64,000 nt of DNA from Neoarius graeffei (lineage: Eukaryota > Chordata > Actinopteri > Siluriformes > Ariidae), in NCBI RefSeq assembly GCF_027579695.1, contig NC_083577.1, positions 43,254,198 through 43,318,197 of the forward strand, written 5' to 3'. The translations under genes and the position numbers were made by a program. Below, one piece after another: positions 5,899-61,654 of this stretch (within the stretch, counting starts at the first letter, position 1; each line of letters starts with the position of its first letter). The notes beneath the pieces were generated by a model, which did not search any database, was not told the origin of the DNA, and was given only the letters and a program-made list of their open reading frames with translations.

Positions 5899-6481
5899 AC
5901 ATTTCTTCTTCTTCTTGATAAAAATGATTTGAAGGTCAGTGTGTCCATCCCAAGCTTTACTTTTCAATTGGGTTTTGAACAGCAAAAAAAAAAAAAAAAA
6001 TAGTGCCCAAGCACTTTAGTTTTAATAATAGCATTAGTGTTACATTTAAAGCAGTTTTGCTGTCTCATATACTAGTGCATCTCAAAAAATTAGAATACCA
6101 TGAAAAAGTTCCTTTTTTTCATAATTTAATTCAAAAAGGTAAACTTTCATATATTCATTACATGTAAAGTGAAATATTTAAAGCCTTTTTTGTTTTAATT
6201 TTGATGATTATGGCTTATAGCTCATGAAAATCAGAAATCTAGTATCTCAAATTATTAGAATATTCCCTAAGATCAATCAAAAAAGGATTTACAATACAGA
6301 AATGTCCAACTTCTGAAAAGTATATTCATTTATACACTCAGTACTTGGTTGGGGCTCCTTTACCATGAATTGCTGTATCAATGCGGTGTGGCATGGAGGT
6401 GATCAGTCTGTGGCACTGCTGAGGTGTTATTGAAGCCCAGGTTGCTTTGATAGTGGCCTTCAGCGTATCTGTATTTTTGGG

Positions 6482-7279
6482 TCAGGTGTTTCTCATCTTC
6501 CTCTTGACAATACCCCATAGATTCTCTATGGGGTTCAGGTCAGGCAAGTTGGCTGGCCAATCAAACACAGTAATATCATGGTCAGCAAACCATTTGGTAG
6601 TAGTTTTGGCACTGTGGGTAGGTGCTAAGTCCTGCTGGAAAAGGAAATCAGCATCTCCAAAAAGATCGTCAGCAGATGGAAGCATGAAGTACTCTAAAAT
6701 CTCCTGGTAGATGGCTGTGTTGACTTTGGACTTGATAAAATATAGTGGACCAACACCAGCAGATGACATGGCACCCCAAATCATCACAGACTGTGGAAAC
6801 TTCACACTGGGCTTCAAACACCTTGGATTCTGTGCCTCTCCACTCTTCCTCCAGACTTTAGAACCGTGATTTCCAAATTAAATGCAAAATGTACTTTCAT
6901 CTGAAAAGAGGACTTTGGACCACTGAGCAACAGTCCATTTCTTTCTCTCCTTAGCCCAGACAAGACACTTCTGACATTGTCTCTGGCTCAGGAGTAGCTT
7001 GATATTAGGAATGCAAAAGTTGTATCCCCTTTCTTGAAGATGTCTGTTCGTGATGGGTCTTGATACATTGACACCAGCCTCAGTCCACTCCTTGTGAAGC
7101 TCTCCCAAGTTCTTGAATGAACTTTTCTTGACAATCCTCTCAAGACTGCGGCCATCCCTGTTGCTTGTGCACCTTTTCCAGCCACCCTTTTCAGGAATGA
7201 CCTTCTGTGGCTTACCCTCCTTGTGGAGGGCATCAGTGATCATCTTCTGGACAACAGTCAAGTCAGTAGTCTTCCCCAT
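6482..7279 (-). pseudogene. Tc1-like transposase, broken
   Basis: The N-terminal piece from 7279 reads MGKTTDLTVVQKMITDALHK, then the DNA-binding region and [11 protein letters not shown] (first catalytic D). A second piece from about 6817 has [30 protein letters not shown] (second D) and [12 protein letters not shown] (E, spacing 34). The frame changes between them near 6820-6880, and a stop follows KRKMRNT while homology continues leftward. Confidence 0.88.
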
Positions 7280-7440
7280 GATTGTGGTTGTGTGTACTGA
7301 ACTAGACCAAGAGATACACTGTGTTCATACTGTTTTACTCAAACTCGAAATGAAATATTCTAATATTCTGAGATGGGGTTTTTTTTAAATGTTTTTGTAC
7401 TGTATGTCATACTGATTAAAATTAAAATAGAAAAATGCTT

Positions 7441-8448
7441 GGGGCGGCACGGTGGTGTAGTGGTTAGCGCTGTCGCCTCACAGCAAGAAGGTCTGGGTTC
7501 GAGCCCCGTGGCCGGCGAGGGCCTTTCTGTGTGGAGTTTGCATGTTCTCCCCGTGGGTTTCCCCCACAGTCCAAAGACATGCAGGTTAGGTTAACTGGTG
7601 ACTCTATTGCCACTTTTCCACTACCAACGCGGCTGAGTCGGGCTGAGTCGAGCTGAGTGGGGCTGTTGGAGTTGCATTTCGACTACAACCGCGCTGAACC
7701 GTGCTGGCTGGAAGTGGGTGGACACATTGGGTGGAGTTAGCGAAAGTGGGTGGACGTCACGTGATGTCATTAGGCGGCGCAACCAGTGACATCAGTGACC
7801 TTTTAAGCGGTAGTCTCACGACCTGGATAGTAAACAATAAACATGGAGGACATGGAGTCGTTAGTGTTGCTGGTCTTGGTGCTGTGGCTTGTTGTCACCG
7901 ACAACACCAACAGATACTGGCAAGAGCGTATAGATGAGGCGAGGCGCATAAGGCTTCAGAAATTCTCGTAATTCGTAATTCTTCTTCTTCTGGGTTTACG
8001 GTGTTTACAGATCCCAGCGTGCTCGCGGGGCGTGTGTGGGCATGTGAGGACACTCCTCCTCACCAATCAGTGCACAGGGGAGTGTCTCCTCACACCCCTA
8101 GCCCCACTCGGCTCGGTTTGGCTCGCTTCAGCCCCACTCCAAAACCGTGCGAGTTTTGGGTGCTGAGTCGGGCTGAAGCGAGCTGAGTCGTGCTGCTCTG
8201 AGGTAGTCGAAACGCAAGCCGTGTCGGGCTGAAGTGAGCTGAAAATGGGTAGTGGAAAAGGGCCATAAATTGACCGTAGGTGTGAATGTGAGTGTGAATG
8301 GTTGTCTATGTGTCAGCCCTGCGATGACCTGGCGACTTGTCCAGGGTGTACCCCGCCTTTCGCCCGTAGTCAGCTGGGATAGGCTCCAGCTTGCCTGCGA
8401 CCCTGTAGAAGGATAAAGCGGCTAGAGATAATGAGATGAATGAGATGA
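7441..8448 (+). mobile_element. V-SINE interrupted by a MITE
   Basis: The head and core lie at 7441-7606 and the tail at 8266-8448. The 3' end is GATAATGAGATGAATGAGATG. Its insertion into the Tc1 removed a short piece of host sequence compared with the sister Tc1 at 60.2 kb. Confidence 0.92.
7607..8265. mobile_element. non-autonomous inverted-repeat transposon, 659 bp
   Basis: Terminal repeats TTGCCACTTTTCCACTACC and the inverse of TGGCCCTTTTCCACTACC are flanked by TA on both sides. Removing the element restores the V-SINE sequence GACTCTAAATTGACC. The body is full of GGCTGAGTCGGGCTGAG motifs. A short frame near 7843 reads MEDMESLVLLVLVLWLVV, reminiscent of the start of PIF/Harbinger transposases, but this is weak. 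Confidence 0.8.
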
Positions 8449-9070: not shown

Positions 9071-9276
9071 CCAGAGTCCGTGCTGATGACGCGTGAATGA
9101 TAAATGAATCATCAGAAAACCTCTTGGCTGATGATATTTGATTGTCTTCATCACGAGCAGCGCCATGTGGAAGCTACACTTTCACGTGCAACGACCATAT
9201 TTTTATATGAACAAGGCAGCTCTGATTATTAGGGAATTAGAAAACCAGACAACATAGGTAATGGGGGGGCACGCAC

Positions 9277-9657
9277 CTGGTCTGGGTCGCACGCCTTGAA
9301 CACATGGCAGGCCATTTCGCACTCCGGGTCGTCCGGCTGGCTGCGGATGAGGTAGGCGAAGTAGGCGAGGTCATGACTGTTATGGATGAAGCGCGAGATG
9401 CACTGCGCTTTGTGCTCGAATATGAAGACGGACGAGCTGCTGCTGTTGGCAGGCACGCAGCGGATCGTAGGAGGGCTGAGGGAGAGCTGGACCTGGCGAG
9501 CCTGAGCCGGACCGGACTCGCTCTTCCTACGGATTTCAGCCACCAGCCAGGGCAGCATGGGCAGCGTGGTGCGGCGGTCCAGCGCGCTGCAGCCCACATA
9601 CCACAGCGAGAAGCTCCTGTCTTTCCCTTTCTTCCCTTTGTCCTCCACTCCCTCCAT
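9277..9657 (-). CDS. tbc1d4: TBC1 domain family member 4, first coding exon
   Basis: TBC1D4 (AS160) is a Rab GTPase-activating protein phosphorylated by Akt that controls GLUT4 vesicle traffic. Only the first exon is here: 127 codons starting at an ATG and ending in phase 0 at the donor CAG|GTGCGT. It encodes the start of the first phosphotyrosine-binding domain. Diagnostic stretches are [47 protein letters not shown] and QPDDPE. They match TBC1D4 better than the paralogue TBC1D1. The N-terminal leader ([14 protein letters not shown]) is shorter than in human, and the linker before VFIF is also short, with a serine run. The C-terminal PTB, TBC and other exons must lie left of the window. The exon is markedly more GC-rich than its surroundings. 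Adjacent commd6, same strand, is also its neighbour in human. Confidence 0.93.
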
Positions 9658-10640: not shown

Positions 10641-10644
10641 AAAT

Positions 10645-10996
10645 CATCTCATTATCTCTAGCAGCTTTGTCCTGTTCTGGCAAGCTGGAGCCTATCCCAG
10701 CTGACTACGGGCGAAAGGCGGGGTACACCCTGGACAAGTCGCCAGGTCATCACAGGGCTGACACATAGACACAGACAACCATTCACACTCACATTCACAC
10801 CTACGGTCAATTTAGAGTCACCAGTTAACCTAACCTGCATGTCTTTGGACTGTGGGGGAAACCAGAGCACCCAGAGGAAACCCACACAGACATCATGCAA
10901 ACTCCACACAGAAAGGCCCTCGCCAGCCACGGGGCTCGAACCCGGACCTTCTTGCTGTGAGGCGACAGCGCTAACCACTACACCACCATGCCGCCC
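10645..10996 (-). mobile_element. V-SINE with internal deletion
   Basis: The tail end lacks the CTACAGGGTCGCAG segment after CCTGTTCTGG, and the core lacks part of the CCCCGTGTCCGCG region. Head and B-box are intact. Confidence 0.92.
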
Positions 10997-11275
10997 AGAA
11001 AGAAGTAAATAACATCAAATCCTAACCCTCTATACCACCGCTAATCAAACGTCACTTTCCGCCATTATAAACTATATATACAAAAGAAAACAAAAGCAAC
11101 AAACAAAAAAAAATACCAACATGGTATAATATCGACCAAATCAAATCATATATACAGATACTTATGTTTATGTTTTTTATATGAAAGTATGTCCCTTTAC
11201 ACACTCATCCAGAAGGGTAATTTTGCACAAGGCCATCTGTCTACAGCAGAAAAAAATAACATAACAAAACGCGTC
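10997..11275. other. non-coding sequence
   Basis: AT-rich; nothing recognised. Confidence 0.5.
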
Positions 11276-14210: not shown

Positions 14211-14612
14211 TACTTCTTGGGACCAGAAGAAAATTACAGAGGGTTTTTTTAAAATATAAAGTTTCAACACTCACACTCAGGTGTGAATGGTTGTGAATGT
14301 GAGTGTGAATGGTTGTCTGTGTCTATGCGTCAGCCCTGTGATGACCTGGCGACTTGTCCAGGGTGTACCCCGCCTTTCACCCGTAGTCAGCTGGGATAGG
14401 CTCCAGCTTGCCTGTGACCCTGTAGAACACGATAAAGCAGCTAGAGATAATGAAATTAGATGAGTTCTCCAGTCAAATTTTTACTTAAGTTAAAGTACTT
14501 GCTTTTAAAAATACATTTTCTGTCAACGCATTGTTGTATTATTGCCACAACGCTTACAAAGCCTAATGCTGTTACCAAAGACATAAATGTGAATTCACAA
14601 AATGAATGTATG

Positions 14613-14980
14613 CTGGGGGCGGCACGGTGGTGTAGTGGTTAGCGCTGTCGCCTCACAGCAAGAAGGTCCTGGGTTCGAGCCCGGGGCCGGCTTGGGCCTT
14701 TCTGTGTGGAGTTTGCATGTTCTCCGCGTGGGTTTCCTCCAGATGCTCCGGTTTCCCCCACAGTCCAAAGACATGCAGGTTAGGTTAACTGGTGACTCTA
14801 AATTGACCGTAGGTGTGAATGTGAGTGTGAATGGTTGTCTGTGTCTATGTGTCAGCCCTGTGATGACCTGGCGACTTGTCCAGGGTGTACCCCGCCTTTC
14901 ACCCGTAGTCAGCTGGGATAGGCTCCAGCTTGCCTGTGACCCTGTAGAACACGATAAAGCAGCTAGAGATAATGAAATGA
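14613..14980 (+). mobile_element. V-SINE, middle copy of tandem array
   Basis: Full head with B-box GGTTCGAGCCC. The tail end reads GATAATGAAATGAGATGAG, a variant shared with the half copy to its left (GATAATGAAATTAGATGAG). Confidence 0.95.
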
Positions 14981-15153
14981 GATGAGTTCTCCAGTCAAAT
15001 TTTTACTTAAGTTAAAGTACTTGCTTTTAAAAATACTTAAGTATTAAAAGTACATTTTCTGTCAACGCATTGTTGTATTATTGCCACAACGCTTACAAAA
15101 CCTAATGCTGTTACCAAAGACATAAATGTGAATTCACAAAATGAATGTATGCT

Positions 15154-15510
15154 GGGGGCGGCACGGTGGTGTAGTGGTTAGCGCTGTCGCCTCACAGCAA
15201 GAAGGTCCTGGGTTCGAGCCCGGGGCCGGCGAGGGCCTTTCTGTGTGGAGTTTGCATGTTCTCCCCGTGTCCGCGTGGGTTTCCCCCACAGTCCAAAGAC
15301 ATGCAGGTTAGGTTAACTGGTGACTCTAAATTGACCGTAGGTGTGAATGGGAGTGTGAATGGTTGTCTGTGTCTATGTGTCAGCCCTGTGATGACCTGGC
15401 GACTTGTCCAGGGTGTACCCCACCTTTCGCCCGTAGTCAGCTGGGATAGGCTCCAGCTTGCCTGCGACCCTGTAGAAGGATAAAGCAACTAGAGATAATG
15501 AGATGAGATG
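15154..15510 (+). mobile_element. V-SINE, last copy of tandem array
   Basis: Lacks the CTCCGGGTGCTCCGG core segment. The tail is AAGCAACTAGAGATAATGAG. Target duplication AATGTATGCTG follows. Confidence 0.95.
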
Positions 15511-15521
15511 AATGTATGCTG

Positions 15522-42495: not shown

Positions 42496-42548
42496 TTCAT
42501 ATATTTCTTCTTCCATATATATAAAGGAAGAAGAAATATATGAAAGGT
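42496..42548. repeat. short hairpin
   Basis: CATATATTTCTTCTTCC pairs with GGAAGAAGAAATATATG around a short TATATAA loop. Confidence 0.85.
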
Positions 42549-42581
42549 TATATAATATCATATTATAATAAAATAAATAGA

Positions 42582-42948
42582 GGTGGTACGGTGGTGTAGT
42601 GGTTAGCGCTGTCACCTCACAGCAAGAAGGTCCGGGTTCGAGCCCAGTGGCCGGCGAGGGCCTTTCTGTGCGGAGTTTGCATGTTCTCCCCGTATCTGCG
42701 TGGGTTTCCTCCGGGTGCTCCGGTTTCCCCCACAGTCCAAAGACATGCAGGTTAGGTTAACTGGTGGCTCTAAATTGACCGTAGGTGTGAATGTGAATGG
42801 TTGTCTGTGTCTATGTGTCAGCCCTGTGATGACCTGGCGACTTGTCCAGGGTGTACCCCGCCTTTCGCCCGTAGTCAGCTGGGATAGGCTCCAGCTTGCC
42901 TGCGACCCTGTAGAAGGATAAAGCGGCTAGAGATAATGAGATGAGATA
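42582..42948 (+). mobile_element. V-SINE abutting a Tc1 left end (donor locus)
   Basis: The tail GAGATGAGATATATATATAT runs directly into the Tc1 terminal repeat. The 3' part from 42872 is shared without visible difference with 48775 onward. Confidence 0.93.
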
Positions 42949-43154
42949 TATATATATTCAACCCCGATTCCAAAAAAGTTGGGACAAAGTACAAATTGTA
43001 AATAAAAACGGAATGCAATGAGGTGGAAGTTTCAAAATTCCATATTTTATTCAGAATAGAACATAGATGACATATCAAATGTTTAAACTGAGAAAATGTA
43101 TCATTTAAAGAGAAAAATTAGGTGATTTTAAATTTCATGATAACAACACTTCTC

Positions 43155-43530
43155 GGCGGCACGGTGGTGTAGTGGTTAGCGCTGTCGCCTCACAGCAAGA
43201 AGGTCCTGGGTTCGAGCCCCGGGGCCGGCGAGGGCCTTTCTGTGTGGAGTTTGCATGTTCTCCCCGTGTCCGCGTGGGTTTCCTCCGGGTGCTCCGGTTT
43301 CCCCCACAGTCCAAAGACATGCAGGTTAGGTTAACTGGTGACTCTAAATTGACCGTAGGTGTGAATGTGAGTGTGAATGGTTGTCTGTGTCTATGTGTCA
43401 GCTCTGTGATGACCTGGCGACTTGTCCAGGGTGTACCCCGCCTTTCGCCCGTAGTCAGCTGGGATAGGCTCCAGCTTGCCTGTGACCCTGTAGAAGGATA
43501 AAGCGGCTAGAGATAATGAGAGGAGATGAG
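43155..43530 (+). mobile_element. V-SINE in the Tc1 left terminal repeat
   Basis: Target duplication ACAACACTTCTC on both sides (43143-43154, 43531-43542). It carries the variant GTCAGCTCTGTGATGACC where other copies have GTCAGCCCTG. Confidence 0.97.
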
Positions 43531-43566
43531 ACAACACTTCTCAAAAAAGTTGGGACAAGGCCATGT

Positions 43567-44469
43567 TTACCACCGTGAGACATCCCCTTTTCTCTTTACA
43601 ACAGTCTGTAAACGTCTGGGGACTAAGGAGACAAGTTGCTCAAGTTTAGGGATAGGAATGTTAACCCATTCTTGTCTAATGTAGGATTCTAGTTGCTCAA
43701 CTGTCTTAGGTCTGTTTTGTCGTATCTTTCGTTTTATGATGCGCCAAATGTTTTCTATGGGTGAAAGATCTGGACTGCAGGCTGGCCAGTTCAGTACCCG
43801 GACCCTTCTTCTATGCAGCCATGATGCTGTAATTGATGCAGTATGTGGTTTGGCATTGTCATGTTGGAAAATGCAAGGTCTTCCCTGAAAGAGACGTCGC
43901 CTGGATGGGAGCATATGTTGCTGTAGAACCTGGATATACCTTTCAGCATTGATGGTGTCTTTCCAGATGTGTAAGCTGCCCATGCCACATGCACTAACGC
44001 AACCCCATACCATCAGAGATGCAGGCTTCTGAACTGAGCGCTGATAACAACTTGGGTCGTCCTGCTCTTTAGTCCGAATGACACGGCGTCCCTGATTTCC
44101 ATAAAGAACTTCAAATTTTGATTCGTCTGACCACAGAACAGTTTTCCACTTTGCCACAGTCCATTTTAAATGAGCCTTGGCCCAGAGAAGACGTCTGCGC
44201 TTCTGGATCATGTTTAGATATGGCTTCTTCTTTGAACTATAGAGTTTTAGCTGGCAATGGCGGATGGCACGGTGAATTGTGTTCACAGATAATGTTCTCT
44301 GGAAATATTCCTGAGCCCATTTTGTGATTTCCAATACAGAAGCATGCCTGTATGTGATGCAGTGCCGTCTAAGGGCCCGAAGATCACGGGCACCCAGTAT
44401 GGTTTTCCGGCCTTGACCCTTACACACAGAGATTCTTCCAGATTCTCTGAATCTTTTGATACTATGCAC
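43567..44469 (-). pseudogene. Tc1-like transposase, nearly intact
   Basis: A continuous 300-codon frame runs to a natural stop. It covers the second half of the first helix-turn-helix ([14 protein letters not shown]), [14 protein letters not shown], the catalytic core [41 protein letters not shown] and [11 protein letters not shown] (D, D, E with 34-residue spacing), and the C-terminal [15 protein letters not shown]. The first roughly 45 residues (LHRQIVEQYQKGVQH) are in another frame at 44480-44580, so one frame break near 44490 separates them. It is the best preserved transposase in the window. Confidence 0.9.
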
Positions 44470-45175
44470 TGTAGATGATGATATGTTTTACAGTGTTGAA
44501 CTCCTTTCTGATATTGCTCCACTATTTGTCGGTGCAGAATTAGGGGGATTGGTGATCCTCTTCCCATCTTTACTTCTGAGAGCCGCTGGCACTCCAAGAT
44601 GCTCTTTTTATACCCAGTCATGTTAATGACCTATTGCCAATTGACCTAATGAGTTGCAATTTGGTCCTCCAGCTGTTCCTTTTTTGTACCTTTAACTTTT
44701 CCAGCCTCTTATTGCCCCTGTCTCAACTTTTTTGAGATGTGTTGCTGTCATGAAATTTCAAATGAGCCAATATTTGGCATGAAATTTCAAAATGTCTCAC
44801 TTTCGACATTTGATATGTTGTCTATGTTCTATTGTGAATACAATATCAATTTTTGAGATTTGTAAATTATTGCATTCTGTTTTTATTTACAATTTGTACT
44901 TTGTCCCAATTTTTTTGGAATTGGGGTTGGATATACTCACAGGTGAAATGTCCGTCCACAACCTTTGACCTGATGATTTGTACAGTTCACTGCTGCACAT
45001 GTAGGCATATTTCTTGTAATTTTTCTCACCAACTACATAAATAACTTGTCCAATTTTGTGCAGCTTCCAGTAGTCTAAATGACCGTTCCGCTCTACTATG
45101 GGAGTGGTAAAATGGCGACCACTCTGACGAATCTATGAGCTCTCCAGATTTTTCTAGAGATAGAGCTCAGTGGGG

Positions 45176-45547
45176 GGCAGCACGGTGGTGTAGTGGTTAG
45201 CACTGTTGCCTCACAGCAAGAAGGTCCTGGGTTCGAGCCCAGTGGCCGACAGGGGCCTTTCTGTGTGGAGTTTGCATGTTCTCCCCTTGTCCGTGTGGGT
45301 TTCCTCCGGGTGCTCCGGTTTCCCCCACAGTCCAAAGACATGCAGGTTAGGCTAATTGGTGGCTCTAAATTGACTGTAGGTGTGAATGTGAATGTGAATG
45401 GTTGTTTGTCTATGTGTCAGCCCTGCGATGACCTGGCGACTTGTCCAGGGTGTACCCTGCCTTTCGCCCATAGTCAGCTGGGATAGGCTCCAGCTTGCCT
45501 GCGACCCTGTAGAACAGGATAAGTGGCTACAGATAATGGATGGATGG
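45176..45547 (+). mobile_element. V-SINE, GGATGGATGG-tail type
   Basis: Target duplication AGAGCTCAGTGG on both sides. The tail GATAATGGATGGATGGAT differs from the GATGAG type. The body has internal variants also seen in the copies at 5579 and 51090. Confidence 0.93.
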
Positions 45548-46168
45548 ATAGAGCTCAGTGGTTGAAATGTTTACCTCTTTTTCTCTGCTTGAACTCTAGA
45601 ATACTTCAGTTGTAGCAGTCTGGCTTGGTTTATATCTGAAACACTTGGATGAAATGAATGCTCCCCTGACAGGTTAATGCACAGCGCACTCTGCCCAGGT
45701 AAATATTTGTTCCCTAATGTTCCCTTGGGCCCCATGTCTACTCAGGGCATATGGACTCACATATGCCTCGTCACCTTCCTTGCCCAGTTTACATCCCATA
45801 TCCAGTCCCATTTATGGCACCTCTGCTGCCATCAAAAATGGTTGCCTGAACCACTTCTAGCCATACTGGTATTAACCTACAGTATTCAGCAGGGGGACTC
45901 ACATGACTGAGAACAAAACACAGAGGTACAGTATGAAGCTTTATCAGATGACATGAACAATATACAAGAAGGTGCTAGAGGTTTTAGGAAGAACTATGTG
46001 AAGCCCTTCATAGGATTGTGATATATAACCTTTCACCCCATCAGATTGGTGGAGCAGAATGGAGAAAAGTGCTGCAAATATTGACTCGGGTGCTGTTCAG
46101 CCTGTAATGTAGTATAGTGGCCTTGAAGTGTACAGCCAATCAATATGTCCTGAAAGCTACCCTCTATG
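45548..46168. other. non-coding sequence
   Basis: No gene or repeat recognised. Confidence 0.5.
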
Positions 46169-46170
46169 TA

Positions 46171-46701
46171 CAGTACCAGTCAAAAGTTTAGACACACCTT
46201 CTAATTCAGTGGTTTTTCATTATTTTTATGAATTAAAATACACTTCATATCTTAAAGTAATGATGGATGTCATTTCTGTTTACTTAGTTCTTGACATAAT
46301 ATGGATTACAGTTGTGGAATAGGGCTATTTACTGTATTTTTATTATTTACTATTTCTGTTTGATCTCAAACACATTAAGAAGGCAAGAAATTGCACTAAT
46401 TAACTTTTGACGAGGCACCTGTTAACTGAAAAGCATTCCAGGTGACTCCCTCATGAAGCTGGTTAAGATAATGCCAATGATGTGTAAAGCATCATCAAGG
46501 TAAAGGGTGGCTACTTTGAAGAATTTAAAATATGAAACTTTTTTTTTTACACTTTTTTTGTTTACCACATAATTCCATATGTTCCATGTGCTATTTCATA
46601 GTTTTCATGTCTTCAGTGTTGTTCTACAATGTACTACAATAGTCAAAATATAGAAACACCTATAAATGAGTAGGGGGTGTCCAAACTTTTGACTGGTAGT
46701 G
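46171..46701. mobile_element. non-autonomous Tc1-like MITE
   Basis: CAGTACCAGTCAAAAGTTTA and the inverse of CACTACCAGTCAAAAGTTTG are terminal repeats with a TA target on the left. The 531-bp body is AT-rich without coding. Confidence 0.85.
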
Positions 46702-47362
46702 CTCTGAAATTAAAACAAATGGGGAAACCTGTAAAATATTGATGTTTGTTAGCTAACACATTTAAATATGGTCTAACTAAGTGCACTTTATAACAGGTTG
46801 GCAAATGGGAGAATGTGAATCGTTATCAGTTGACTTGTGTAAGCTTGTTACTGACATGCTTCCCATACAGAATGTATTTGCTTATCTGGTCAGTCTGAAA
46901 GGATGGTGGTATTTTCTCAGTTCACATCTATATCGTCCTTGGAAGCAGCACAGACATCTGTTAACATAGCATACAGTGCTCAGCGTAAATGAGTACACCC
47001 CCTTTGAAAAGTAACATTTTAAACAATATCTCAATGAACACAAACAATTTCCAAAATGGTGAAAAGACAAAGTTTAATATAACATCTGTTTAACTTATAA
47101 CGTGAAAGTAAGGTTAATAATATAAACTTAGATTACACATTTTTCAGTTTTACTCAAATTAGCGTGGTGCAAAAATGAGTACACCCCACAACAAAAACTA
47201 CTGCATCTAGTACTTTGTATGGCCTCCATGATTTTTTTAATGACAGCACCAAGTCTTCTAGGCATGGAATGAACAAGTTGGTGACATTTTGCAACATCAA
47301 TCTTTTTCCATTCTTCAACAATGACCTCTTTTAGTGACTGGATGCTGGATGGAGAGTGATGC

Positions 47363-48229
47363 TCAACTTGTCTCTTCAGAATTCCCCCATAGGTGTTCGA
47401 TTGGGTTCAGATCAGGAGACATACTTGGCCACTGAATCACTTTCATCCTGTTCTTCTTCAGAAATCCAACAGTGGCCTTAGATGTGTGTTTAGGATCATT
47501 GTCATGTTGGAAAAGTGCACGACGACCAAGGGCACGGAGTGATGGTAGTATCTTCTCTTTCAGTATAGAGCAATACATCTGTGAATTCATGATGCCATCA
47601 ATGAAATGCAGCTCTCCGACACCAGCAGCACTCATGCAGCCCCACATAAGGACACTGCCACCACCATGTTTCACTGTAGGCACTATGCATTTTTCTTTGT
47701 ATTCTTCACCTTTGTGACGCCATACAGTTTTGAAGCCATCAGTTCCAAAAACATTTATCTTGGTCTCATCACTCCAGAGTATAGAGTCCCAGTAGTCTTC
47801 ATCTTTGTCAGCATGGGCCCTGGCAAACTCTAGGTGGGCTTTTTTGTGCCTGGGCTTTAGGAGAGGCTTCTTTCGTGGACAGCATCCATGCATGCCATTC
47901 CTCTGCAGTGTACACCGTATTGTGTCACGGGAAATAGTCACCCCAGTTTGGCTTTCTACTTCTTTAGATAACTGCAGTGAACTTGCATGCCGATTTTCTT
48001 CAACCCTTCTCATCTGAAGACGCTCCTGTCAAGGTGTTAACTTCCGTGGACGACCTGGACATGTCTGTGAGGTGGTTGCTGTTCCATCTTTCTTAAATTT
48101 TTGTACCACTTTTGCTACAGTATTCTGACTGATAAGTAAAGCTTTGCTGATCTTCTTGTAGCCTTCACCTTTGTGGTGGAAAGAAATTATTTTCTTTGGG
48201 GAATTCTGGAGAGACAAGTTGAGCATCAC
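47363..48229 (-). pseudogene. Tc1-like transposase with one stop and a late frameshift
   Basis: From 48229 the frame reads [14 protein letters not shown] (encoded by the terminal repeat), the helix-turn-helix region and GRPRKLTP, then a TGA stop. It resumes in the same frame as MRRVEENRHASSLQLSKEVE. The core is complete: [49 protein letters not shown] (DD34E). Just after LWG a five-G run shifts the frame to NSEETS and a stop. The expected C-terminus ([16 protein letters not shown]) continues in the next frame. Copy 1 at 3.3 kb has the same five-G run. Confidence 0.9.
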
Positions 48230-48485
48230 TCTCCATCCAGCATCCAGTCACTAAAAAAGGTCATTGTTGAAGAATGGAAAAAGATTGATATTGCAAAATG
48301 TCGCCAACTTGTTCATTCCATGCTTAGAAGACTTGGTGCTGTCATTAAAAATCATGGAGGCCATGCAAAGTACTAGATGTAGTAGTTTTTGTTGTGGAGT
48401 GTACTCATTTTTGCACCACCCTAATTTGAGTAAAACTGAAAAATGTGTAATCTAAGTTTATATTATTAACCTTACTTTCATGTTA

Positions 48486-49436
48486 CGGCACGGTGGTGTG
48501 GTGGTTAGCGCTGTCGCCTCACAGCAAGAAGGTCCTGGGTTCGAGCCCCGGGGCCGGCGAGGGCCTTTCTGTGTGGAGTTTGCATGTTCTCCCCGTGTCC
48601 GCGTGGGTTTCCTCCGGGTGCTCCGGTTTCCCCCACAGTCCAAAGACATGCAGGTTAGGTTGACTGGTGACTCTAAATTGACCGTAGGTGTGAGTGTGAA
48701 TGGTTGTCTGTGTCTATGTGTCAGCCCTGTGATGACCTGGCGACTTGTCCAGGGTGTACCCCGCCTTTCGCCCATAGTCAGCTGGGATAGGCTCCAGCTT
48801 GCCTGCGACCCTGTAGAAGGATAAAGCGGCTAGAGATAATGAGATGAGATATATATATATTCAACCCCGATTCCAAAAAAGTTGGGACAAAGTACAAATT
48901 GTAAATAAAAACGGAATGCAATGAGGTGGAAGTTTCAAAATTCCATATTTTATTCAGAATAGAACATAGATGACATATCAAATGTTTAAACTGAGAAAAT
49001 GTATCATTTAAAGAGAAAAATTAGGTGATTTTAAATTTCATGATAACAACACTTCTCGGCGGCACGGTGGTGTAGTGGTTAGCGCTGTCGCCTCACAGCA
49101 AGAAGGTCCTGGGTTCGAGCCCCGGGGCCGGCGAGGGCCTTTCTGTGTGGAGTTTGCATGTTCTCCCCGTGTCCGCGTGGGTTTCCTCCGGGTGCTCCGG
49201 TTTCCCCCACAGTCCAAAGACATGCAGGTTAGGTTAACTGGTGACTCTAAATTGACCGTAGGTGTGAATGTGAGTGTGAATGGTTGTCTGTGTCTATGTG
49301 TCAGCTCTGTGATGACCTGGCGACTTGTCCAGGGTGTACCCCGCCTTTCGCCCGTAGTCAGCTGGGATAGGCTCCAGCTCGCCTGCGACCCTGTAGAACA
49401 GGATAAAGCGGCTAGAGATAATGAGATGAGAATGAG
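48486..49436 (+). mobile_element. composite V-SINE / Tc1 fragment / V-SINE insertion
   Basis: A V-SINE (48486-48850), a 195-bp Tc1 left end of another family (48860-49057), and a second V-SINE (49058-49436) sit together between one pair of target duplications ACTTTCAYGTTA (48474-48485, 49437-49448). The middle 605 bp equals 42872-43476. The second V-SINE lacks the ACAACACTTCTC duplication on its right that its partner at 43155 has. Confidence 0.93.
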
Positions 49437-49748
49437 ACTTTCACGTTACAAGTTAAACAGATGTTATAATAAACTTTGTCTTTTCACCATTTTGGAAATT
49501 GTTTGTGTTCATTGAGATATTGTTTAAAATGTTACTTTTCAAAGGGGGTGTACTCATTTACGCTGAGCACTGTATATTTTCTGTAAATATAATTTAAAAA
49601 GCAGCCAAAAATATTTCGTAGCCTTTGGCATTGTATAGGAATGGAATATGTTGGGTTTTAAATGTATTGAGCTGTTGTTTTAACATCCCTGACCATTTCC
49701 CCTTCCTTACACCAACCTGTAGCTTTGTATGAAATATCAGAAAGTAAA

Positions 49749-55900: not shown

Positions 55901-58900
55901 GTTTCCACCCCCATGCTTCATAGTAGGTATGGTGTTCTTTGGATGCAACTCAGCATTCTTTCTCCTCCAAACACAACAAGTTGAGTTTTTACCAAAAAGT
56001 TCTATTTGGGTTTCATCTGACCATATGACATTCTCCCAATCCTCTTCTGGATCATCCAAATGCTCTCTAGCAAACTTCAGATGGGCCTGGACATGTACTG
56101 GCTTAAGCAGGGGGACACATCTGGCACTGCAGGATTTGAGTCCCTGGCGGCGTAGTGTGTTACTGATAGTAGCCTTTGTTACTTTGGTCCCAGCTCTCTG
56201 CAGGTCATTCACTAGGTCCCCCCGTGTGGTTCTGGGATTTTTGCTCACCGTTCTTGTGATCATTTTGACCCCATGGGGTGAGATCTTGCGTGGAGCCCCA
56301 GATCGAGGGAGATTATCAGTGGTCTTGTATGTCTTCCATTTTCTAATAATTGCTCCCACAGTTGATTTCTTCACACCAAGCTGCTTACCTATTGCAGATT
56401 CAGTCTTCCCAGCCTGGTGCAGGTCTACAATTTTGTTTCTGGTGTCCTTTGACAGATCTTTGGTCTTAGACTGGTACCAAAATTCAAAAAAGTGCTTATT
56501 TAAGGAGTTAAAGGCATTTTTGAGACAAAGTCGGCAAACAGTCTTATTTTGTCAATTTGGGTGTGCCGAATTCAAATCTGCAATATGCCGAGCTCTATCT
56601 GACCTCTGTTGACCTCTAGAGGTCATTGAACTTTGGGCCTGTAAACGTCTCAGCTGAACCCAGTTTCTCAGCTTTCTAAGGAATGAAATGTACTAAAATG
56701 ATTAATGAAGTTAGCAACTGGCCTTGTTTGTTAAATGTTTGGGTGCTGAATTCATTTTTCATTTGTAAAATGACATATGACCTCTGATAACCTCAAGGTC
56801 ATTAAACTTGGCCTATAGGCCTATGCATTTAACGGCATTTTTAAACTGACTTTACTCCCCCAAAAAGAATATGAACAGACAAAAAACAAATAGAAAGGAA
56901 CAAATACAACATTAAATGCCAGTCCATGTACATGTGACTTACTTTTCACAATGGGAGTGCCTAGGCGATCACCTTACATAACATTGCATTACATTTAGCG
57001 GTTATTGTTTATACAAAGCTACTGAAAAAAGGACAGATTCAGCAGCATACAAAATGTGGGGGCATACAGGGTATACAGGTTAATCAGGGTTAGTATATAT
57101 GAGAGTTTTTTTCTTTGTTGTTTGTTTTTTGTAACAAACTTTACCCCTTTTAAAACAAAACAAAACAAAAAACAAACAACAAAGAAAAAAACTCTCATAT
57201 ATACTAACCCTGATTAACCTGTATACCCTGTATGCCCCCACATTTTGTATGCTGCTGAATCTGTCCTTTTTTCAGTAGCTTTGTATAAACAATAACCGCT
57301 AAATGTACTGCAATGTTATGTAAGGTGATCGCCTAGGCATTCTCATTGTGAAAAGTAAGTCACATGTACATGGACTGGCATTTAATGTTGTATTTGTTCC
57401 TTTCTATTTGTTTTTTGTCTGTTCATATTCTTTTTGGGGGAGTAAAGTCAGTTTAAAAATGCCGTTAAATGCATAGGCCTATAGGCCAAGTTTAATGACC
57501 TTGAGGTTATCAGAGGTCATATGTTGTTTTACAAATGAAAAATGAATTCAGCACCCAAACATTTAACAAACAAGGCCATTTGCTAACTTCATTAATCATT
57601 TTAGTACATTTCATTCCTTAGAAAGCTGAGAAACTGGGTTCAGCTGAGACGTTTACAGGCCCAAAGTTCAATGACCTCTAGAGGTCAACAGAGGTCAGAT
57701 AGAGCTCGGCATATTGCAGATTTGAATTCGGCACACCCAAATTGACAAAATAAGACTGTTTGCCGACTTTGTCTCAAAAATGCCTTTGGGTGTCACAATT
57801 CTGGATTTTGGTACCAGTCTATCTTGGCCATAGTGGAGTTTGGAGTGAGACTGTTTGAGGTTGTGGACAGGTGTCTTTTGATAACGAGTTCAAACAGGTA
57901 CCATTAATACAGGTAACGAGTGGAGGACAGAGGAGCCTCTTAAAGAAGAAGTTACAGGTCTGTGAGAGCCAGAAATCTTGCTTGTTTGTAGGTGACCAAA
58001 TACTTATTTTACCAAGGAATTTACCAATTAATTCATTAAAAATCCTACAATGTGATTTCCTGGATTCTTTCCCCCCATTCTGTCTCTCATAGTTGAAGTG
58101 TACCTATGATGAAAATTACAGGCCTTTCTCATCTTTTTAAGTGGGAGAACTTGCACAATTGGTTGCTGACTAAATACTTTTTTGCCCCACTGTAACTGCC
58201 TCCAAACTTCTCTAATCGTCTGATTAACTATTCCATATTCTCTGTTCTAATTTTCATTCTCTCACATTCTTCTTGAAATACTGTATCTTTCATAACTGTG
58301 CCCAACGTAATCTCATCTCATTATCTCTAGCCGCTTTATCCTTCTACAGGGTCGCAGGCAAGCTGGAGCCTATCCCAGCTGACTACGGGCGAAAGGCGGG
58401 GTACCCTGGACAAGTCGCTAGGTCATCACAGGGCTGACACATAGACACAGACAACCATTCACACTCACACCTACGGTCAATTTAGAGTCACCAGTTAACC
58501 TAACCTGCATGTCTTTGGACTGTGGGGGAAACCGGAGCACCCGGAGGAAACCCACGCGGACACGGGGAGAACATGCAAACTCCACACAGAAAGGCCCTCG
58601 CCGGCCCCGGGGATCGAACCCAGGACCTTCTTGCTGTGAGGCGACAGCGCTAACCACTACACCACCGTGCCGCCTGCCCAACGTAATACGCTGTGTTATT
58701 CAGATCAGTTCCGGAGACCAAGAGCATAATAGCAATTCTACTTTTCAAAATTTTTAATTTGATTTTGCCTTATATTTTAGAATTTGTCATGTTGAAGGAT
58801 ACACCCATTTTACATATGTAACAGTGGAAAGAAAGAAAGTGAGAAAGAAACAAATTATTGTTGTTGTTAGTGGAAGTAAGTACTGGTGCATCTAAAAAAA

Positions 58901-61654
58901 TTAGAATATCATGAAAGTTTGTTTTTTCGTAATTTAATTCAATAAGGTAAACTTTCATATATTCTCTATTCATAACATAAAGTGAAATATTTCAAGCCTT
59001 TTTTTGGTTTGTTTTAATTTTGATGATTATGGCTTATAGCTCATGAAAATCAGAAATTCAGTATCTCAAATTATTAGAACATTTCCTAAGATCAATAAAA
59101 AAAAAGGATTTACAATACAGAAATGTCCAGCTTCTGAAAAGTATGTTCATTTATACACTCAGTACTTGGTTGGGGCTCCTTTACCATGAATTACTACATC
59201 AATACAGTGTGGCATTGAAACAATCAGCCTACAGCACTGCTGAGGTGTTATTGAAGCCCAGGTTGCTTTGACGGCGGCCTTCAGTTCGTCTGTATTTTTG
59301 AGTTGAGCGTTTCTCATCTTTCTCTTGAAAATACCCCATAGATTCTCTCTGGGGTTCAGGTCAGGCAAGTTGCCTGGCCAATCAAGCACAGTAATATCAT
59401 GGTCAGCAAACCATTTGGTAGTAGTTTTGGCATTGTGGGCAGGTGAAAAGTCCTGCTGGAAAAGGAAATCAGTACCTCCATAAAGCTTGTCAGCAGATGG
59501 AAGCATGAAGTGCTCTAAAATCTCCTGGTAGATGGCTGCATTGACTTTGGACTTGATAAAACACAGTGGACCAATGCCAGCAGATGACATGGCACCCCAA
59601 ATCATCACAGACTGCAGAAGCTTCACACTGGACTGGCAAAATTTACTTTTATCTGAAAAGAGGACTTTGGACCACTGAACAACAGTCTAGTTCTTTCTCT
59701 CCATAGCCCAGGTAAGACGCTTCTGACATTGTCTCTGGTTCAGGAGTGGTTTGATATTAGGAATGCGACAGTTGTAGACTCTTTCCTGAAGACATCTGTG
59801 CATGGTGGCTCTTGATGCACTGACACCAGCCTCAGTCCACTCCTTGTGAAGCTCTCCCAAGTTCTTGAATTGACTTTTCTTGACAATTCTCTCAAGGCTG
59901 CAGTCATCCCTGTTGCTTGTGCACCTTTTTCAGCCAGCCTTTTCAACAATGGCCTTCTGTAGCTTACCCTCCTTGTGGAGGGTGTCGATGATTGTCTTCT
60001 GGACAACTGACAAGTCAGCAATCTTCCCCATGATTGTGGTTGTGTGTACTGAAGTAGACCGAAAAATACACAGCATTTATACCGTTTGAATAATCATTTA
60101 CTCAAACTTGAAAGGAAATATTCTGATATTTTGAGATGCTTTTTAAAAAAATGTTGTGCTGTTGACCACAATTATCAAACTTAAAATATAAAAATGCTTG
60201 AAACATTTTAATTTACATGTAATGAGCCTAAAATATGTTAAATTTTCACTTTATTAAATACCTGATGGAAAATATTGAACTTTTTCCTGATATTCTAATT
60301 TTTTGAGATGCATTAGCAAACAAACAAACAAACAAACAAACAAACAAACAAACAAACAAACAAACATTGTTTGTTTGTTAAGAAATTATAAAACAGATGA
60401 ACATTTTCACTTTTTTCCATTCAGGACTATGAGAGATGCAGACTTTGGCCTCAACTATAAGTCATCTTCATAGTTTAGATTTTTGCAAAAATAGATAAAC
60501 ATAAATGTTGTTCTAAAGATCATGGATAAGACAGAGCTTTAATATTTACTATTTTGCAATAATACAGGGGGCTGCAAAAGTAGGTATACAGTATGAAAAG
60601 CAAAACATTCACACAAAACATTAGTATTAAATGAAACCTAGCACCACTATTATAATACTGGTAATACTGAAATAATCCTTACTGTATACCTACTTTTGCA
60701 GCCCCCTGTATATACCTTAGTAGCCATGTAGTATATATTAATTTGTACTGTTTGAAACATGGAAAGGCTGGTCATTCATTTTTAGGACCTTTTTTCCCAA
60801 ATATTTCATTTTTCATTTTAATAGTGTTTCAGTGTTAAACAGGAAACATCTTGGTGAACAATTAGTAGGGTTTTTTTTTTTCCGAGTATCTGCACTACAG
60901 TTTTTCTTTCACTTAAAAACAGAACTTATGTTAGTTCACTTAAGTGAATAGTTACTCACATTCCCTGGTTCTTTGCTGAAAGACCATTAATTTGCCCTCA
61001 ATAACTAAAGTCAGTTTCTAATCTGAGATATAGGCTTTGTTCTCAGTTGTGATTCTTTCTTGTACTTCAACTTTAACACTATGTAAAACTGTGTCGTTAT
61101 ATACTTTAAAATGCAGATAATATTTGGTCTTTATTCATGAATTCTTGTAATCCAACCATTTGTAATAGCTTTCTTTGTCCTCTTTGCAGAGGCCACAAAT
61201 TTCAGTGACCCCATCGTCTGCTACGTGCTGGATGCAGTTCTGCTCTTATACTGCATCATTTTTACAGCACTGTACTTTAAACTTAAGGTGAGACTGTTAC
61301 ATAGATGATGGATGAATGATTCTTCATTACTATGGAGTGTTTTTGTCTAAACTATCTTCTATTTGACTTTTTAGTTTGAAAAGGCAAAGGCCTTTGTCAA
61401 GCTACCTGACAAGTCTGCTCTAACGGTGAGTCACTGTGTTGTGTATTTCTGAGTACAGTTGGGCAACATTTCTGAGAATAGCATGTCAGTGATTGTGCAA
61501 GCAAAAAATCATTGCTATAATCTTTCACCTTTTACTATAATCTGGTTTGTATTTGCCATAAGTAACTTTTGCATCATTCATGTGACTCATTTAATCTACT
61601 TCTGTGTCTTTTTAAATGTAGGCTGAAGCAGGACAAGATGAGGGGCATTATCAG
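52201..61654 (+). CDS. CD3-zeta / FcR-gamma family signalling adaptor, 5' exons
   Basis: Small disulphide-linked membrane adaptors of this family (CD247, FCER1G) pass signals from T-cell and Fc receptors through ITAM tyrosines. Exons: 52201-52258, 61190-61287, 61375-61425, 61622-61654, all with AG/GT ends and fitting phase. Exon 1 is a signal peptide ([13 protein letters not shown]). Exon 2 has a very short ectodomain and the signature [20 protein letters not shown]: the cysteine that links dimers and the membrane aspartate that pairs with receptor basic residues. A cytoplasmic LKFEKAKAF and [17 protein letters not shown] follow. The frame is open into a donor GTAAGT. A possible next exon (62413-62457) would give YQPLNGPQIHRL. 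Remaining exons are probably beyond the window. Which paralogue it is cannot be settled; the layout fits CD247 slightly better. Intron 1 is 8.9 kb. Confidence 0.82.
52259..55239. other. intron 1 of the CD3-zeta-like gene, left part
   Basis: AT-rich non-coding sequence with a TTA microsatellite. No other gene or recognised repeat. Confidence 0.6.
52894..52957. repeat. (TTA)n microsatellite
   Basis: About 64 bp of TTA repeat. Confidence 0.97.
55456..56460 (-). pseudogene. Tc1-like transposase, broken
   Basis: The N-terminal region ([46 protein letters not shown]) and first catalytic motif [11 protein letters not shown] lie in one frame down to 55859. The second part ([40 protein letters not shown], natural stop) is in another frame from 55833. 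The frame changes in the short gap between. The start codon side is interrupted at about 56466 by the palindromic insert. Confidence 0.9.
56467..57821. mobile_element. 1.36-kb near-perfect palindrome (foldback element)
   Basis: It begins TAGACTGGTACC and ends with the exact inverse GGTACCAGTCTA, flanked by TCT on both sides (56464-56466, 57822-57824). Removing it with one TCT restores the usual Tc1 sequence TTTGGTCTTGGCCATAG. The left arm runs to about 57132 and the right arm from about 57165, around a roughly 32-bp loop. The arms match over about 650 bp with scattered single differences and a diverged patch near each end. No coding region is evident. A 3-bp target duplication does not by itself fix the superfamily. 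Confidence 0.88.
58312..58674 (-). mobile_element. V-SINE with 13-bp target duplication
   Basis: Flanked by TGCCCAACGTAAT (58299-58311, 58675-58687). Confidence 0.97.
58883..60316 (-). mobile_element. Tc1-like element (CTAGTGCATCTC family), second copy
   Basis: Ends CTGGTGCATCTAAAAAAATT and the inverse of CTAATGCATCTCAAAAAATT. It is 1.43 kb without insertions and shows the empty sites of the V-SINEs that sit in the copy at 6072-8911. Confidence 0.9.
59159..60029 (-). pseudogene. Tc1-like transposase, broken
   Basis: The C-terminal 155-codon frame ([43 protein letters not shown], natural end HGKGAPTKY) is intact. The N-terminal part ([32 protein letters not shown]) is split by stops and a frame change near 59640-59930. 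The motif DLNPRENLW has R in place of the usual I, but the catalytic E remains. Confidence 0.88.
60317..60366. repeat. (CAAA)n microsatellite
   Basis: About 50 bp of CAAA repeat directly after the Tc1 end. Confidence 0.95.
60565..60708. mobile_element. 144-bp hairpin MITE
   Basis: CAGGGGGCTGCAAAAGTAGG at the left and its exact inverse at the right are flanked by TA. The repeats extend about 30 bp to TATACAGTA. It is probably a mariner-type MITE. Confidence 0.9.
60709..61189. other. end of intron 1 of the CD3-zeta-like gene
   Basis: AT-rich with T-runs; ends in the acceptor TCTTTGCAG. Nothing else recognised. Confidence 0.6.

Follow-up and report, generated by a model that had tools for sequence, protein, structure and literature searches.

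Probable homology-directed copying of a Tc1-type transposon end between two SINE loci of Neoarius graeffei

Results

Organisation of the donor locus

The window analysed is a stretch of 64,000 nucleotides from contig NC_083577.1 of Neoarius graeffei, and all positions are counted from its first base. It is rich in SINEs, which we take to be V-SINEs, with 29 merged matches to one SINE query, 20 of which exceed 250 bp, and five of its eight translated frames match the DDE_3 transposase family. The SINEs, target duplications and tract copies described below for the donor and the recipient lie on the plus strand. V-SINEs are defined by a tRNA-related head, a conserved V domain and a LINE-related tail; no tRNA gene was found in the window by ARAGORN under bacterial settings and there is no Rfam match within 42500-49700. 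The phages, viral contigs and genome contigs searched gave no match, as expected for animal DNA. A motif search found no paper on the SINE motif.

At 42.9 kb an upstream SINE (SINE1, 42585-42950), with a GT-type 5′ part and a 6-bp deletion of class b, is followed by a Tc1-type element (42957-44931) that encloses a second SINE (SINE2, 43155-43530) between its left and right target duplications, both reading ACAACACTTCTC (43143-43154 and 43531-43542). The inverted ends of the Tc1-type element (42953-43154 and 44734-44935) are 202 nt long and 81% complementary, and a transposase ORF on the minus strand (43567-44469) matches the Pfam families DDE_3 (E 2.1e-15) and HTH_Tnp_Tc3_2 (E 9.7e-9), so that the DDE transposase and the terminal inverted repeats that characterise Tc1/mariner elements are both present. 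No target duplication of at least 7 bp was found for SINE1. The proposal in an earlier note on this DNA that the pieces are in their natural place at 42.9 kb is borne out directly for the complete Tc1-type element and for SINE2 with its duplications, and for SINE1 is suggested by the order of the elements and the adjoining Tc1. At two loci fetched from elsewhere in the genome (such loci are designated L with a number), L005 and L008, Tc1 copies that have no nested SINE also directly adjoin a V-SINE tail.

Organisation of the recipient locus

At 48.5 kb a composite (48486-49436) is enclosed by one 12-bp duplication, ACTTTCA[T/C]GTTA, which reads ACTTTCATGTTA on the left (48474-48485) and ACTTTCACGTTA on the right (49437-49448). 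Its 5′ arm (48486-48774) is a GG-type SINE of deletion class a, unlike SINE1, and its 3′ arm (49380-49436) is a SINE 3′ end with an AC insertion (GTAGAACAGGAT), unlike SINE2. Between the arms (48775-49379) lie the 3′ part of SINE1, the left end of the Tc1-type element and the 5′ part of SINE2, the last preceded by an orphan left copy of ACAACACTTCTC (49046-49057); the right copy and the Tc1 body are absent. This agrees with what the earlier note had described, a composite held between a single duplication pair, in which the second V-SINE has no pair of its own and the Tc1 piece no partner.

The duplicated motif occurs singly, as ACTTTCACGTTA, at two paralogous minus-strand sites, near 47.1 and 3.4 kb, from which it follows both that the composite stands where one SINE had been retroposed and that the left duplication copy at 48.5 kb later changed from C to T. 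The 47.1-kb site is separated from the recipient by a Tc1-type ORF (47363-48013, minus strand), and the flanks of site and recipient match each other in inverted orientation. From this arrangement the recipient SINE would appear to sit in one inverted end of the Tc1-type element with this ORF, the 47.1-kb site being the other end.

Comparison of the two loci

The tract at 42872-43476 is identical to that at 48775-49379 at 605 of 605 bases, as the earlier note had claimed, and on self-comparison the identity ends exactly at these bounds. Alignment of the whole composites (42585-43532 with 48487-49438) gives 952 columns of which 19 differ, 13 to the left of the tract (42587-42871), six to the right (43477-43525) and none within it. 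The differences are thus far from evenly spread, and the outer parts of the V-SINEs are indeed what differs between the loci. When 17 events were scattered at random over the 952 columns a run of at least 605 arose once in 1,000,000 trials, a slightly conservative estimate since the alignment has 18 events. The tract is the longest exact run among the 325 self-matches of at least 100 columns in the window; the next, in a SINE pair, is 237 bp. An identical tract flanked by divergence inside homologous sequence is what is looked for in gene conversion.

Uneven clustering as such is not unique to this pair. By a rough formula that works on differing columns and counts each gap column separately, the pair scores 9e-8, and two SINE pairs score more strongly at 4e-10 and 6e-8, both of them including a deletion-bearing copy at 10644-10999. 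What distinguishes the 42.9/48.5-kb pair is that its exact run leaves a SINE, crosses Tc1 sequence and enters a second SINE.

Direction of the transfer

The recipient lacks the right ACAACACTTCTC and the Tc1 body and the donor has both, which indicates, as far as the arrangement of the two loci can tell, that the transfer ran from 42.9 kb to 48.5 kb. The donor locus still has its full Tc1-type element and the duplications on both sides of SINE2, as in a one-way transfer that leaves the donor unchanged. The reverse direction was rejected since, of the two loci, only that at 42.9 kb has the right duplication of SINE2 and the Tc1 body.

Among the 50 genome matches listed, with 40 of 2,419 first-look candidates scored, the whole composite is found only at 42.9 and 48.5 kb. 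The markers gaggtgg, aacacttctc and cagctctg are common to these two loci and absent from all four of the other Tc1-plus-SINE loci aligned (L003, L004, L006 and L007), which speaks, within the 40 candidates scored, against another genomic donor. Of the 95 places that match the right-hand junction of SINE2 tail, ACAACACTTCTC and Tc1 within two mismatches, some of which are empty sites, only 42.9 kb has it exactly. The duplication motif in its CTTCTC form is also present at two others of the 95 places, and so is not strictly private to these loci; one of the two (L030) was fetched and is an empty Tc1 site. The donor duplications, the Tc1 body and the three shared markers together support the direction that the earlier note had given.

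Tract edges and timing

Counted in SINE coordinates, markers unlike the donor extend as far as 296 on the left and resume at 322 on the right, which places both edges of the tract inside SINE sequence, as had been claimed, and within the same 25 bases (297-321). It seems that the resident SINE was split at one point in this interval and that about 580 bp were added with little or nothing lost. Each of the markers nearest the tract (48774, 49380 and 49386) is a single changed base, with CpG involved in two cases, and could be a later mutation; if they all were, the bounds on the edges would widen to approximately 216-339. The nearest markers that resemble subfamily diagnostics are at 48694 and 49398-49399.

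The target duplication has one change in 24 bases and the tract none in 1,210 (Fisher 0.019), and at CpG sites alone the corresponding figures are one of two and none of 46 (Fisher 0.042), both tests being post hoc and resting on one base. The evidence leans towards the insertion of the resident being older than the transfer.

Route of the transfer

The most probable explanation is that homology-directed copying from 42.9 kb into a SINE resident at 48.5 kb carried the Tc1 end with it. A SINE would have inserted at 48.5 kb earlier, making its own 12-bp target duplication, and would then have suffered a break or a stall within its 3′ third. The part on the left could pair with SINE1 at 42.9 kb, and extension from there would copy the end of SINE1, the adjacent Tc1 end and most of SINE2. 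On its return the new strand, now ending in SINE2 sequence, would pair with the right-hand portion of the SINE from which it had started, either by synthesis-dependent strand annealing or by homology-driven template switching, leaving about 580 bp added at one point and the donor unaltered. The break, the strand exchange and the descent of both arms from one resident element are what we infer here from the final products.

A second route could lead to the same product, in which one SINE unit and the Tc1 end, no more and no less, stand at a single point with both edges in 297-321. If SINE1 and SINE2 had recombined on a sister copy of the donor, they could have released a circle of about 580 bp, and one crossover would then have integrated it into the resident SINE. 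Strand annealing that follows a break and template switching guided by homology predict this product no less than does the integration of a circle by a single crossover, and a circular intermediate arising by SVA-SVA recombination has been inferred in apes (PMC9132208). The circle nevertheless calls for an extra intermediate and for the donor to survive on the sister copy; its hybrid joint would not be visible, since no marker distinguishes SINE1 from SINE2 between SINE positions 248 and 328, and if no circle was involved, it would be only mildly surprising for the two edges to fall together within about 25 of 378 positions. We consider this route improbable relative to direct copying.

The arms of the recipient complicate the picture of a simple resident. 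Their combination of a GG-type 5′ part with the AC insertion in the 3′ part occurs in none of the 11 other comparable GG-type SINEs, all 11 of which lack the insertion, compared with its presence in 12 of the 20 GT-type copies in which the state is readable, from 23 in all (Fisher 0.0014). These counts come from 49 distinct near-full-length SINEs in the window and the fetched loci; the sample is not random, as most of the fetched loci had been selected for having a SINE within Tc1. Six of 38 loci were dropped, three because they lie in the window (L001, L002 and L009) and three because they repeat others (L019, L032 and L035 repeat L004, L006 and L007), and the two composite SINEs and a tandem hybrid (14619-14986) were set aside from the GG-type count. 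Among the five other copies of deletion class a, four lack the insertion and one, the GT-type copy at L034, has it. Although the single target duplication fits an origin of both arms from one resident, the missing combination makes one plain resident SINE doubtful, and either the resident was already a hybrid or three sources contributed. The conversion of a resident V-SINE that the earlier note had put forward thus stands as a transfer of 605 bp for which homology at the level of DNA is the likeliest basis; its single plain resident is in doubt, and the same edges would be expected from a circle.

Three RNA templates would account naturally for arms that resemble different subfamilies, and also for a composite lying between a single target duplication, if in the course of one SINE insertion the reverse transcriptase had switched from a SINE RNA to an RNA of the 42.9-kb composite and then to another SINE RNA. 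However, two switches would be necessary, both in the same SINE stretch, and a changed duplication beside an unchanged tract is less expected if the two are coeval (p approximately 0.02-0.04). The pol III transcript would moreover have to cross two TTTT runs, at 43045 and 43126 in the Tc1 piece that separates SINE1 from SINE2, and these would tend to stop read-through. This explanation seems to us about as improbable as the circle.

An error of assembly, in which near-identical SINEs were mis-threaded and donor sequence pasted into the recipient SINE, would likewise yield a tract with no differences and edges inside the SINE. Both recipient flanks and the duplication are coherent, though, and the genome of 2.34 Gb is in 38 contigs, with the window, which contains no N, in one of 94 Mb. 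These features suggest, without proving it, that the assembly was built from long reads, to which a span of 1 kb would be no obstacle, and a misassembly appears a little less probable again than the circle or the RNA templates.

Two simpler schemes were rejected. A plain retroposed read-through transcript should match its source evenly and the differences number 13 on the left, none in the middle and six on the right, in keeping with the earlier argument that the mosaic edges speak against it; a simple crossover joining 42.9 and 48.5 kb should leave the intervening 5.9 kb either doubled or lost, and the seven self-matches of the window that exceed 415 bp include no such duplication.

A second SINE-bounded duplication

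Two of these seven self-matches are of a SINE-spacer-SINE kind. The other such region (14292-15511) consists of the 3′ part of SINE A, a spacer, a hybrid SINE (14619-14986), a spacer and SINE B (15158-15511), and 14292-14985 aligns with 14814-15511 over 711 columns at 93.5%. SINE B has GAATGTATGCTG on each side. The middle SINE has the left flank of B, the right flank of A and no duplication of its own, and for these reasons can be read as a recombinant, a unit of about 522 bp having apparently been duplicated through SINE sequence. The suggestion in the earlier note that SINEs act as handles for the copying of unrelated DNA thereby gains one further case within the window.

V-SINEs at one Tc1 site and other features of the window

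Many genomic copies of the donor-type Tc1 family contain a V-SINE at precisely the same point, ACAACACATCTC, where the inverted repeat reaches its inner end, as seen at 43143-43154 of the window and in fetched loci L003-L038. The SINEs beside it with a duplication seen start at SINE position 1, about 254 (L031) or about 258 (L021); others, for which the left copy was not found, start at about 140 (L037), 241 (L026) and 298 (L025). They belong to several subfamilies and this, with the varied starts, argues for repeated independent insertion rather than for one amplified nest, and suggests that V-SINEs may have entered the family at ACAACACATCTC repeatedly. Two other Tc1 positions hold V-SINEs (L027 and L029), among 33 loci mostly chosen for the ACAACACATCTC site. 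In L036 an inverted SINE (1537-1900) lies at Tc1 positions 1390-1400, a place that, worked out by hand, mirrors the ACAACACATCTC site within the opposite inverted repeat, suggesting that it is the sequence that is targeted. In L012 and L038 a different tail (ggataagcggaaga..., ggataaagcggaaga..., ending gacgagac), presumably LINE-like, stops at the same Tc1 site just to the left of the start of the body.

Elsewhere in the window an ORF on the minus strand (9229-9657) has a PTB/PID match (E 1.2e-4) and is, we assume, possibly an exon of a TBC1D1/TBC1D4-like gene. Two long direct matches (6070-7441 and 58881-60200, 84-89%) are probably two copies of another Tc1-type element, since a DDE_3 ORF (59159-59626) lies within the latter.

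Discussion

Repair between repeats is known, but a clear record of unrelated DNA being carried along with it is rare. Conversion of SINEs is usually detected through swapped subfamily markers. Here the tract brought along the end of an unrelated transposon and an orphaned target duplication, and a single sequence therefore reveals the donor and the recipient, the direction of the transfer and where its edges lie. Counting such orphan pieces across the genome would measure how often, and over what distance, SINEs drive the movement of unrelated DNA, and would correct repeat annotation that treats the pieces as independent insertions.

A broader reading, which we put forward tentatively and think rather doubtful, is that paired SINEs in the genome regularly export the DNA between them as SINE-spacer-SINE units into single SINEs elsewhere. 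That the units would travel as circles or by strand annealing, with no transposase, is a part of this idea and equally speculative. If it were true, the density of SINEs would set the rate of small copy-and-paste of unrelated DNA, and the window, with its units of about 580 and 522 bp in 64 kb, would have captured a common process twice.

No comparable case for fish SINEs was found among the open-licence papers listed in our searches. Three known systems come closest. Non-allelic gene conversion between Alu elements acts within about 10 kb, according to an earlier study quoted in PMC8230782, and makes hybrid elements; the distance of 5.9 kb between the SINEs fits this range. The present case is similar in being a transfer from SINE to SINE with hybrid elements. 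In the Alu examples given there, however, a SINE is wholly or partly replaced by another, whereas at 48.5 kb about 200 bp of an unrelated Tc1 end have been added between SINEs.

Nesting of a V-SINE in a Tc1/mariner-type element has a parallel in MER6, a Tc1/Mariner-type MITE that holds V-SINE sequence and has multiplied as a DNA transposon, as described in PMC6887750. Unlike MER6, the piece at 48.5 kb has one Tc1 end and is read as having been moved by SINE homology.

In the expansion of lcr16a/NPIPB in apes, PMC9132208 infers SVA-SVA recombination, with the lcr16a insert bordered by two chimeric SVAs. In both cases an insert lies between two chimeric retroelements within the target duplication of the resident. 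The SVA case concerns a large gene-bearing segmental duplication, in contrast to the approximately 580 bp moved over 5.9 kb here, for which a circle is a proposal. By analogy, the 48.5-kb locus would follow the same logic as the SVA case on a smaller scale, with SINEs in place of SVAs.
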